Shown: in pieces, positions 47,842 through 52,213 of the stretch
Layout of the letters: the number at the start of each line of letters is the position of its first letter
How positions within the stretch are numbered: the first letter of the stretch is position 1
DNA from: Nitrososphaera sp.
GTDB lineage: Archaea; Thermoproteota; Nitrososphaeria; Nitrososphaerales; Nitrososphaeraceae
DNA: 64,000 nucleotides
NCBI GenBank assembly: GCA_029263715.1
Contig: JAJUFP010000005.1
Coordinates: forward strand, 62,001-126,000
Direction: 5' to 3'
Translations under genes and position numbers: made by a program
Notes under the pieces: generated by a model
What the model saw: the letters and a program-made list of their open reading frames with translations, nothing else
Database searches by the model: none
Told to the model about the DNA's origin: nothing

Positions 47842-48552
47842 CTAGCCTGGTCGTATCTCTTTTTTGGTGTCTTTTCTTCCCAGAAATTCAAGCAAAACTC
47901 CAGCAATGATGCCAAGCAAAAACCAGAATGCGGTCATGCCGGCCGCACTGACAGACCTCCACCCGTTGAGAAGCTGCAGATCGACATAATCGACCTCCGG
48001 ATACGGCGGAAACACAAAGTACATCGCCGCAACTATTGCCAGGTAAACTCCAGCAGCTCCAAACGGCCAGTTCTTCCGCCTGGTTTTCCAAAAGGCTATT
48101 GCCGATCCCAGAGCTGCAAGCCCGGAAATAGCAGAATAAGATGAGTAAAGAGAATAGTATGATCGTGCAGCCTCTTGATCAAAGAGAGCCTCAAGACTGG
48201 AAGGGTACTTGGCTGCAGGCATGGCGTACAGTGAGAACCAGGCAACGCCCACAATTATCAGGGCAGCCATCAGCGGCTTTGAAGTGCGGAACTTGGCATA
48301 AACTGCGGCAAATGCCCCGCCGGAAATGCCGCCCGTGATGATGGGGCCGGCCGTCTGCCAGAGATACAGCGACTGCAGGCTCCGTTCATACGCATCAAAG
48401 TCCAGCTCGCCGGTAACCTCCAGAAAAGTCGAATAATTGTCTGCCAGCTTTACAGTGTACGGCCTGACTACAGTTGAATTAAAGGCTGCCAGGATCAGGC
48501 CGGCTACTATGCCGGCTGCAATAGAGACTGCGATAATCCTAGTTGTATGCAA
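47842..48552 (-). CDS. CbtA-like cobalt transporter subunit (membrane protein)
   Basis: A 236-residue protein with about six membrane helices. The order of segments (N-terminal AGIVAGLILAAFN, GGISGGAFAAVYA, AWFSLYAMPAAKYP, and a C-terminal helix pair) resembles CbtA, a B12-linked cobalt permease subunit. The usual CbtB partner, a short His-rich membrane protein, is not next to it. The start is TTG. Because CbtA is a divergent family I rate this as moderate. It would fit the cobalamin adenosyltransferase gene at 51.6 kb. Confidence 0.55.
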   Translation of the reverse strand: MHTTRIIAVSIAAGIVAGLILAAFNSTVVRPYTVKLADNYSTFLEVTGELDFDAYERSLQSLYLWQTAGPIITGGISGGAFAAVYAKFRTSKPLMAALIIVGVAWFSLYAMPAAKYPSSLEALFDQEAARSYYSLYSSYSAISGLAALGSAIAFWKTRRKNWPFGAAGVYLAIVAAMYFVFPPYPEVDYVDLQLLNGWRSVSAAGMTAFWFLLGIIAGVLLEFLGRKDTKKEIRPG

Positions 48553-49635: not shown

Positions 49636-50964
49636 GTGTCCCTGATTGAGCTGCAGAGCAGAAAGAAGTGGACCGTCAACGGCACTTCCAGAATCAAGCC
49701 TGCACAGGAAACCCTGGAAAAAGTAATCCCGCTATCAAAAAAGATAGGGGTTACAAGGCTTGCCGACATCACAGACATGGATGTGCTGCGCATACCAAAT
49801 TATTCTGCGGTGCTGCCTGGGACTGAAGACTATATCTGGGTATACAGCGGCAAGGGCCCGACCAGAGAGCATGCCATGGCCAGCGCGCTGATGGAAAGCA
49901 TAGAGCGGTATTCCTCCCTTCCTGCAGGAGGGCCACGAAAATTTGTCAGGTCCAGCTTTGCAGAGCTGTCAAAAACCTGCAATGTTCTGCATCCAGACAG
50001 CATCGTCGAGCCCACAAGGTTTGACTACCGCGACGACATGCTGATGGATTTTCTGCCCGGCTTTGACCTAGTCTCAGGCGAGGAGGTGATGGTTCCTGCC
50101 TCCATCGCCCTGTTCCGGTACTCGCCGCCACCTCCAGCCGTAAACCCGTTTGCGTACTCGCACACCAACGGTCTTGCTTCAGGAAACGTCATGGAGGAGG
50201 CCATCTGCCACTCGCTTTGCGAGGTCGTAGAACGCGATGCCATGAGCATTGCAGAGCTGCGGGCCAGTGCCATCCCCTTCCACATCATGCGCAGCGTGGT
50301 GCACTCCCTCAACACTGCTGGATTTCCGGTGCCACCGATTCCGGCGGCTTCCTTTGTTGATGATCCGGGCGTCTTTCCAGAAGTGGACATATCCGGCGTG
50401 GAATTTGAACCGGTAAGGAACCTTGCAGCCAAGTTTGAAAAGGCAGGCATCCCGCTGATAATAAAGGACATCACATCGGACATCGGCATACCCACGTTCA
50501 ACGCCAGCAGCATTGAATGGATATCCCATGATTACGGCTACCTGGCGGAAGGACACGGCACCCATCCCGATGCAAGGATTGCCCTATTGCGGGCCATAAC
50601 AGAGGTTTCCCAGACACGGGCAGCCAACATCCAGGGAGCCCGCGATGACCTGCGGAAGATAAAGTACGGCGAGAACAACACCGATGACAAGCGAGCATGG
50701 CAGTTCATGCAGTCTACCAAAAAGATCCAGTTCTCTGATGTCAGGACCTATTTCCACGAAGACATCCTAGACGATATCAAGTTCATTATCTCAAGACTCA
50801 AAAGCGTGGGCCTTGACCGCGTGATAATTGTGGACCTCACCAATCCGGACCTAAAGATACCGGTAGTACGGGCCGTAGTGCCGGGTCTTGAGACCTTCAA
50901 GATAACCAAATCCGTGATGGGAGTACGTGCAAGGGCGTGTTTTAGACAATGGCAAGACCAGTGA
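49636..50964 (+). CDS. ycaO: YcaO-domain protein (ATP-dependent peptide backbone modifier)
   Basis: A 442-residue YcaO-family enzyme, which activates amide oxygens with ATP to form thioamides or azolines. The nucleotide/Mg site is readable: SALMESIERYS (83-93), EEAICHSLCEVVERDA (187-202) and a later TEVSQTRAANIQGARDD. The C-terminus ends with a Cys-containing FRQWQDQ rather than the Pro-rich tail of azoline cyclodehydratases, as in thioamide-forming YcaO proteins that work with TfuA. The start is GTG. It overlaps tfuA by 16 bases. The substrate is not encoded in view. Confidence 0.92.
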   Translation: MSLIELQSRKKWTVNGTSRIKPAQETLEKVIPLSKKIGVTRLADITDMDVLRIPNYSAVLPGTEDYIWVYSGKGPTREHAMASALMESIERYSSLPAGGPRKFVRSSFAELSKTCNVLHPDSIVEPTRFDYRDDMLMDFLPGFDLVSGEEVMVPASIALFRYSPPPPAVNPFAYSHTNGLASGNVMEEAICHSLCEVVERDAMSIAELRASAIPFHIMRSVVHSLNTAGFPVPPIPAASFVDDPGVFPEVDISGVEFEPVRNLAAKFEKAGIPLIIKDITSDIGIPTFNASSIEWISHDYGYLAEGHGTHPDARIALLRAITEVSQTRAANIQGARDDLRKIKYGENNTDDKRAWQFMQSTKKIQFSDVRTYFHEDILDDIKFIISRLKSVGLDRVIIVDLTNPDLKIPVVRAVVPGLETFKITKSVMGVRARACFRQWQDQ

Positions 50965-51611
50965 TATTTCTAGGCCCCAGCCTGAGCCATGAAAAGGCAC
51001 GCAGCATACTGCCGGATGCGGATTACAGGCCGCCTGCAAAAAAAGGGGATTTCCTCAGGCTGGCGGCAAGCCCCGATGTAAAGATGGTCGGCTTTGTCGA
51101 CGGCGTATTTTTGCAGGACTACCCACCAACGCCCATCGAGGTGTACCAGCTGGCAAGAAAAGAAGGCATGCTTCTAGCCGGAGCCGCAAGCCTTGGTGCG
51201 CTGCGCGCCGTCGAGCTGGAAAAGTTTGGAATGATAGGCATTGGGAGGATCTTTAACCTGTACAAGAACAACAAGATAAACGCCGATGACGAGGTTGCCG
51301 TGACTTTCTCCGACGGGGATTTCCGCCTCCAGTCCGAGGCCATGATAGACATAAGATACAACCTCTTTCTGGCCCACAAGAAGGGCGTCATCAGCAAAAA
51401 GACCAAGGTCGCACTGACCAAGGTTGCAAAAGGCATCTATTTTCCCCACAGAAATTATGCAGACATTATCGACTTGGCCAAAAAACAATACCCCGGTCTT
51501 CAAGACATTGATGCGTTTAAAAACTACATACAGACCAGCAGGAAAAGCCTGAAGGAGATGGATGCAATAAAATTGCTTGAATTCTTTAAGGCGCGGCTGG
51601 CCGGTAGCTAA
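50949..51611 (+). CDS. tfuA: TfuA-like protein, partner of YcaO
   Basis: A 220-residue TfuA-family protein with VIFLGPSLSHEKAR near the start and the conserved GAASLGALRAVEL (about 77-89) and YPPTPIEVYQL-type motifs. TfuA assists YcaO in thioamide formation, probably by helping sulfur delivery. In methanogens the pair thioamidates McrA, which is not expected in this organism. The ATG overlaps the ycaO end by 16 bases; the pair is clearly one unit. Confidence 0.9.
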   Translation: MARPVIFLGPSLSHEKARSILPDADYRPPAKKGDFLRLAASPDVKMVGFVDGVFLQDYPPTPIEVYQLARKEGMLLAGAASLGALRAVELEKFGMIGIGRIFNLYKNNKINADDEVAVTFSDGDFRLQSEAMIDIRYNLFLAHKKGVISKKTKVALTKVAKGIYFPHRNYADIIDLAKKQYPGLQDIDAFKNYIQTSRKSLKEMDAIKLLEFFKARLAGS

Positions 51612-51643: not shown

Positions 51644-52213
51644 ATGAAGATATACACCAAGACCGGCGATAAGGGAGAGACAGGCCTTATCGGAGGTGCG
51701 CGTGTCAGCAAGGCCGACCAGCGGATCGTTGCCTACGGGACGGTCGATGAGATCAACTCCAACATTGGGCTTGCAATTTCGCTTCTAAGGCCAAGACAAG
51801 GCATCTTCTCTGACTTGATTGAGGCACTCACCGGGATTCAAAATGACCTTTTCTTAGTTGGGTCTGACCTTGCAGATCCGGATTATCCAGAAAGCAGGTA
51901 CGGCACGCGGCGCACCAGCGAAAACATGGTTACAAAGCTTGAAACAACCATCGACAAGTTTGAAGCAGAACTGGCGCCCATCACATTTTTCATTCTGCCT
52001 GGCGGCAGTGCAGAAGCGTCGCTGCTCCACGTCTGCAGAAGCGTATCAAGAAGGGCGGAGACGGCAGCTGTAGCCCTTTCAAAGATGGCCAGCATCAATC
52101 CGGTGGTTGTAATGTACCTGAACAGGCTTTCTGACCTGTTTTTTGTCTCTGCTAGACTTGCCAACAAGAGGCAGAACGTTCCAGACGTTGCCTGGTCTAA
52201 AGATCAACCTTAA
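51644..52213 (+). CDS. Cob(I)yrinic acid a,c-diamide adenosyltransferase (PduO type)
   Basis: A 189-residue ATP:cobalamin adenosyltransferase. The N-terminal signature KIYTKTGDKGETGLIGG, AYGTVDEINSNIGLA, and the C-terminal RRAETA...YLNRLSDLFF segment are all conserved. It provides adenosylcobalamin, the cofactor of methylmalonyl-CoA mutase. The ATG is 32 bases after tfuA on the same strand, so co-transcription with ycaO-tfuA is possible. Confidence 0.93.
   Translation: MKIYTKTGDKGETGLIGGARVSKADQRIVAYGTVDEINSNIGLAISLLRPRQGIFSDLIEALTGIQNDLFLVGSDLADPDYPESRYGTRRTSENMVTKLETTIDKFEAELAPITFFILPGGSAEASLLHVCRSVSRRAETAAVALSKMASINPVVVMYLNRLSDLFFVSARLANKRQNVPDVAWSKDQP

Follow-up and report, generated by a model that had tools for sequence, protein, structure and literature searches.

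The 64,000-nucleotide stretch of a Nitrososphaera sp. genome analysed here (the window; contig JAJUFP010000005.1, positions 62,001 to 126,000) encodes a YcaO-TfuA pair, which is probably a McrA-type thioamidation machine with a dedicated substrate, a protein of ~58 residues and four predicted helices that is putatively related to the NHLP clan. In one set of ammonia-oxidizing archaea (AOA) all three genes are present together; several lineages keep them in physical linkage, and they are retained where that linkage is missing. The partnership of the small protein with the pair is the well-supported part of this proposal, and from it we infer that the small protein carries the thioamide. That AOA possess such a YcaO has been in print since 2017 (PMC5589413, in the part available); what is new is the conserved partner protein. 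In the literature searched, with subscription papers mostly outside it, none of the titles, abstract openings or passages listed described the small protein or any AOA substrate, and a first-pass annotation of the window, made from the sequence by itself, had likewise supposed the modification to be undescribed.

Co-occurrence and linkage of the three genes

To describe the distribution of the genes, we used samples of 150 genomes of the class, 300 of the phylum and 70 of the family, with families coded by number; matching to named loci identifies f1 as Nitrososphaeraceae and f3 as Nitrosocaldaceae, and f2 is probably Nitrosopumilaceae. In the class sample, TfuA was present in 22 genomes (16 f1, five f3 and one f5), YcaO was present in the identical 22, and strong matches to a profile of the small protein fell in exactly those 22, the window's genome included. 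AmoA was found in 107 genomes of this sample, namely all 22 trio-bearing genomes and 85 others, all f2, which have neither YcaO, TfuA nor the small protein. In the phylum sample, TfuA occurred in 33 genomes (32 above the cut-off), comprising seven AOA and 26 genomes of f15 or f44, and McrA occurred in 27, all f15, f44 or f47, comprising the 26 TfuA-bearing genomes and one without TfuA; therefore, TfuA is found in this sample either with McrA or in one set of AOA, and nowhere else. The strong small-protein matches were confined to the seven TfuA-bearing AOA. Three weak matches outside AOA (E 2e-5 to 9e-4, in genomes without TfuA), a second weak match in genome G136 and one in G435 were excluded from the members.

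Within the family sample, 69 of the 70 genomes had TfuA and 64 had the small protein; in those with a completeness of 90% or more and a contamination of 5% or less, the counts were 37/37 and 35/37, respectively. One genome (59% complete) had neither. Five genomes had TfuA only: the contig ends inside ycaO in two of them, 36 bp upstream in one and 346 bp upstream in another, and the fifth is 66% complete and belongs to a genus in which the small-protein gene is unlinked. The genome that keeps 346 bp (G414) follows the arrangement of locus L089, in which one has to go farther upstream to reach the small gene; its absence from G414 is thus not established, and the gap is likely due to the contig end.

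The gene neighbourhoods tell a similar story. When the surroundings of the pair in 20 relatives (9-20 kb each) were compared, the one family common to f1 and f3 beyond the pair itself was a ~60-codon open reading frame (ORF) that points away from ycaO and sits one or two genes from it. With L026 (f3) and L028 (f5) added by tblastn, this ORF was present in 13 of the 20 relatives, and these 13 sequences make up the profile used above. It was the sole neighbour family of f1 that also occurred in f3 or f5; two other families, at a distance of 4 to 12 genes, were shared by f3 and f5 alone. A scan of 77 named loci, in which linkage was counted where TfuA was present and at least 700 bp of upstream sequence remained (n = 54), placed a divergent small ORF within 1.7 kb upstream of ycaO in 45 loci, while the other nine, eight Nitrososphaera-like loci and L086, form one group in the tree. 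The spacing between ycaO and the small ORF was 50-350 bp in 38 of the 49 loci that have it. Since the named loci overlap with the sampled genomes, these counts are not independent of the genome-sample counts.

In the window's genome, six more genomes of its genus and one neighbouring genus, the small gene lies away from the pair, and it was retained in all eight genomes examined from these unlinked lineages (Nitrososphaera and its sister). Here it is flanked by DNA-glycosylase-like and antiporter-like families (named by eye from translations), with one further gene between it and the flanking family at some loci. The profile had no match in the window at E ≤ 1. Hence the first-pass annotation, which saw no precursor beside the pair, was right as far as the window goes, and the partner is encoded on a separate contig (Table 1). 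The annotation's proposal that the pair has no dedicated substrate and acts on a ribosomal or metabolic protein is not supported, given this small NHLP-like partner, which the majority of other lineages encode divergently from ycaO; a ribosomal or metabolic target is the less likely reading.

The adjacency at 45 of 54 loci, the retention of the small gene after unlinking and the lack of a strong match in TfuA-less genomes make it very improbable that the genes share inheritance or position by coincidence, with the pair as a relic of methanogens whose target is some other protein. Such a relic would fit the YcaO, which is nearest to McrA-type enzymes, and a DNA-pattern search of the genome for GFDLQD/GYDLQD, the McrA thioglycine context, returned one exact and eight one-mismatch matches against two for a reversed control. 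The exact GFDLQD match (L181, G000:C13:10772) is in frame within a protein of at least 1006 aa that is subtilase-like by eye; having looked at it, we judged the nine matches, as candidates for a McrA-like site elsewhere in the genome, to be chance, which is a judgement and not a demonstration.

The enzyme pair and its genomic setting

Table 1. Coordinates of the pair in the window and of the small-protein gene in the same genome.
Feature	Position	Strand	Product or start	Assignment or basis
ycaO	49636-50964	+	GTG start, 442 aa	putative ATP-dependent backbone-amide-activating enzyme, McrA-thioamidation type
tfuA	50949-51611	+	220 aa	putative partner of thioamide-forming YcaO
small-protein gene	G000:C11:60392-60550		separate contig from pair	profile match

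Both genes of the pair are complete and share 16 bases (50949-50964), so that ORF coordinates and Pfam domains bear out what had been read from the letters at first pass. YcaO matches PF02624 at 263.1 bits over the full model (positions 1-325; cut-off 25.7), which places it in the YcaO superfamily, and TfuA, adjoining ycaO, matches PF07812 at 120.1 bits over 118 of 119 model positions (cut-off 30), which places it in the TfuA family. The motifs picked out earlier are all present, namely MESIER and EEAICHSLCEVVER in YcaO and GAASLGALRA in TfuA, with many invariant positions across 20 YcaO rows and 21 TfuA rows. The nearest NCBIfam models for both proteins are the equivalogs of McrA-glycine thioamidation, with scores below the cut-offs: 294.8 bits against 365 for YcaO (TIGR03266) and 199.3 against 235.2 for TfuA (NF033432). 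Among solved structures, the closest by sequence are M. jannaschii MJ1094 (6pe3/6peu, E 4.1e-55) for YcaO and the TfuA domain protein 6xp8 (E 1.5e-45) for TfuA, and the AlphaFold model of YcaO (pLDDT 85.1) has M. jannaschii YcaO with peptide (6peu) as its top Foldseek match (E 4.4e-30). Two other YcaO types fit poorly. First, the score against NF040716, the uL16-thioamidating type, is 34.5 of 700 bits, and the predicted isoelectric point (pI) of 6.0 and the adjoining TfuA set the enzyme apart from that acidic, TfuA-free subfamily. Second, the score of 146.7 bits against SagD, the YcaO type of azole-forming systems, is under the cut-off of 219.25, and a Pfam scan of seven further window neighbours contained no E1-like C protein or SagB-type dehydrogenase.

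The host is, as supposed from the outset, a putative ammonia oxidizer, with two matches to archaeal AmoA (PF12942) in its genome. McrA had not been expected, and PF02249 has no match in this genome, which is 93.6% complete. The pair is thus of McrA type in an ammonia oxidizer without a McrA match, and the target should therefore be something else. Around the pair, a CbtA-like (cobalt transporter) gene lies a few genes upstream (window 47842-48552) and a cobalamin adenosyltransferase gene lies immediately 3' of tfuA (window 51644-52213). As targets, the neighbours (cobalamin adenosyltransferase, HD-domain, DUF6659 and CbtA) were rejected, none being common to f1 and other families.

In a YcaO tree built by a quick procedure from rows of at least 380 aa, with long branches in the outgroup and rooted at the midpoint, 65 AOA rows and five extra copies without TfuA form one group of 70 (SH-aLRT 100); because the root is a midpoint, the sister of this group is uncertain. 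Nayak et al. placed the ammonia-oxidizer YcaO inside the methanogen YcaO clade (PMC5589413, section 5, from the part available), and eight TfuA-related clusters were counted in Thaumarchaeota in the portion of PMC8120280 at hand. The five extra copies (L123, L128, L132, L134 and L136), three of them on long branches, come without the small protein and without TfuA on the contig; at four of these loci, nearby genes encode proteins with a repeated Trp-rich motif, e.g. YGEWAAEWWKWILSIP (by eye). Three loci titled Nitrosopumilales or Nitrosopumilus (L088, L111 and L141) carry the pair and group in the tree with Nitrosopolaris or Nitrosocosmicus, and these titles are probably misnomers. The top-scoring bacterial relative among the matches listed is a McrA-like YcaO-TfuA pair of Solirubrobacterales (L147:5962-8102, 35% identity), where the small protein was not found. 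Genome G140 contains an 836-aa YcaO open frame. At a further AOA locus (L178:687-4319, G115:C67), a SagB dehydrogenase gene adjoins one for an 821-aa cyclodehydratase of fused SagC/SagD type (287 bits to TIGR03604); by its sequence, this is an azole-forming cluster of the thiazole/oxazole-modified microcin (TOMM) type, distinct from the YcaO-TfuA pair.

The small protein as candidate substrate

The small ORF looks coding by its sequence conservation. The ratio of non-synonymous to synonymous change (omega) was below 0.5 in all 119 computable pairs, with a median of 0.14; the pairs share rows, and of the 183 pairs within the identity band 64 were left out because synonymous divergence (dS) was zero or saturated. 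Start codons, many of them TTG, were picked from the ORF and the alignment, and the match in G140 spans a TAG ahead of which its ORF ends. Across 59 small proteins, A18, F24, R25 and L36 are invariant, and I14, P22, S42 and K46 are at least 90% conserved. The protein is predicted by AlphaFold, at a mean pLDDT of 91, to form helices at residues 3-20, 22-30, 32-36 and 43-57. Its putative kinship is with the NHLP clan (Os1348), whose models NF038399 and TIGR03793 match 20 of 22 members at E ≤ 0.01, and its profile finds nitrile hydratase alpha at E 6e-8 for the whole chain. Peptides of the NHLP kind appear by name among the precursors of YcaO (TOMM) systems (PMC4603692, in part). Genome G136 encodes a second, different NHLP-like protein, a 92-aa ORF (L180:4618-4896) with the NHLP-like stretch AWNNPTFRKEFVENP, a longer C-terminus and no NCBIfam match.

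From what is known of the families, we would expect the modification to proceed as follows. A ThiS-like carrier would deliver sulfur via TfuA; the window's genome encodes a distinct ThiS/MoaD-like protein with GG at its C-terminus, a candidate that may instead serve molybdopterin. The small protein itself was considered as such a carrier and rejected, with a C-terminal GG in 0 of 59. YcaO would bind the small protein and use ATP to activate a backbone amide, and sulfide would then displace the amide oxygen (+15.977 Da). As a guess, and this is the least certain step, the site may be the loop that joins helices 3 and 4 (residues 37-46) or its vicinity; the conserved Ser42 and Lys46 of this region stand at the edge of the NHLP clan's own signature or past it. 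Because it has neither a recognised cleavage signal nor a free core, the small protein would stay in the cell after modification, folded and resident, and would not be released as a peptide.

Several observations weigh against the small protein as the substrate. First, its co-occurrence with the pair amounts to no more than a handful of evolutionary events, in which whole clades have or lost the genes, so that unrelated genes could show the same profile, and the pair and the small gene are unlinked in the window's genome. Second, as to the NHLP kinship, the scores seen against the clan models are under the curated cut-offs, nitrile hydratase reaches an i-E of 9e-4 at its best stretch, two solved NHLP leaders come at E 0.024 and 0.071, ranked among unrelated proteins, and Foldseek gave no match to the predicted fold at E ≤ 0.001. 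Third, the known McrA enzyme modifies glycine, and 42 of the 59 small proteins have no Gly at all; the double-Gly leader/core boundary is likewise missing (GG or GA in 0/59), and there is no core. Lastly, divergent adjacency also fits a regulator.

These observations bear on three other roles for the small protein. It may be a leader-like adaptor that binds YcaO in trans and enables the modification of another conserved protein, which we regard as doubtful and still the best of the alternatives: the protein resembles a leader without a core, and its gene is separate and was kept after relocation in Nitrososphaera. Against this role, the pairs of McrA genomes do without it, no match being seen near 24 of those pairs nor any strong match in an f15 or f44 genome among the matches listed, and no other neighbour family is common to f1 and the remaining AOA families, although an unlinked target would be invisible to such a comparison. 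A classical ribosomally synthesized and post-translationally modified peptide (RiPP), in which the C-terminal ~15 residues would be thioamidated, cleaved and released, is unlikely. The NHLP-clan similarity would suit it, as would the coupling of YcaO-TfuA with small precursors in thioamide RiPP systems (PMC8120280, in part), but the missing GG/GA, the C-terminus predicted as a helix within the fold, and purifying selection across the compared rows with no hypervariable core argue against it. A RiPP precursor gene in the genome was one of the findings that the first-pass annotation had set against itself; the small protein comes close to one and has no RiPP core, and the earlier interpretation is overall partly supported.

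Less probable again is a divergent regulator of ycaO-tfuA, with an unlinked conserved protein, e.g. a ribosomal one, as the target of the enzymes. Divergent orientation at short spacing and TATA-like boxes upstream of most of 30 small-gene starts or regions looked at (by eye) are in its favour. Against it, no DNA-binding family was among the small-protein matches (Pfam, four proteins; NCBIfam, 4 and 22 proteins), the median pI is 6.1 (4.8 in the window's genome), and the similarity points to RiPP leaders; a ribosomal target is further disfavoured because the known ribosomal YcaO type has a pI of 4.4 and no TfuA (PMC13063428, in the part available), at odds with the enzyme described above.

Taking the small protein as the dedicated substrate, we tentatively suggest that a McrA-type thioamidase was re-targeted in early AOA to a folded, core-less NHLP mini-protein. 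The result would be a resident sulfur-modified protein, perhaps binding or sensing a soft metal, e.g. Cu(I), in copper-dependent metabolism, which f2 (0 of 85 amoA genomes) would have lost or never had. To our knowledge, no thioamide has been known on a stand-alone leader-like protein. The pair and the small protein are found in soil and hot-spring AOA, and with the most likely target now a named 58-residue protein, a single mass measurement can test what the target is. Should the partner prove to be the substrate, soil nitrifiers carry backbone thioamides in their resident proteome, and the roles of NHLP-like proteins extend beyond secreted RiPPs.

Comparison with known systems

Each known system shares part of this arrangement; the sources cited here by PMC number were available in part. 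Thioamidated RiPP clusters (PMC8120280) likewise join YcaO-TfuA to a small gene-encoded partner, but are read there as RiPP pathways with precursor peptides, and the text of that source at hand holds no description of the AOA small protein. E. coli YcaO, acting on ribosomal protein uL16 (PMC13063428), provides the precedent of a YcaO that modifies a folded cellular protein instead of a RiPP, although it works without TfuA, is strongly acidic and belongs to a different subfamily. With NHLP/proteusin precursors (TIGR03793, NF038399; PMC10858898, PMC4603692) the small protein shares the helical nitrile-hydratase-alpha-like region and the conserved P-E-F-R..L..P...L. A proteusin leader has a rigid helical bundle like that of nitrile hydratase, after which come a largely disordered part and then the core (PMC10858898), whereas the AOA protein is predicted as the bundle and an extra fourth helix only, ends at ~58 residues without double-Gly or core, and scores under the curated cut-offs. 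The fourth system is the McrA pair of methanogens (PMC5589413; 6peu/6pe3, 6ci7). The AOA pair differs from it in a genome without a McrA match, in scores under both equivalog cut-offs, in a YcaO group of its own with 70 rows, and in the small NHLP-like partner, which was not found with the pairs of McrA genomes; the two agree in both enzymes, in gene order and overlap, in the best sequence and fold matches, and in forming neighbouring groups in the unrooted quick tree.
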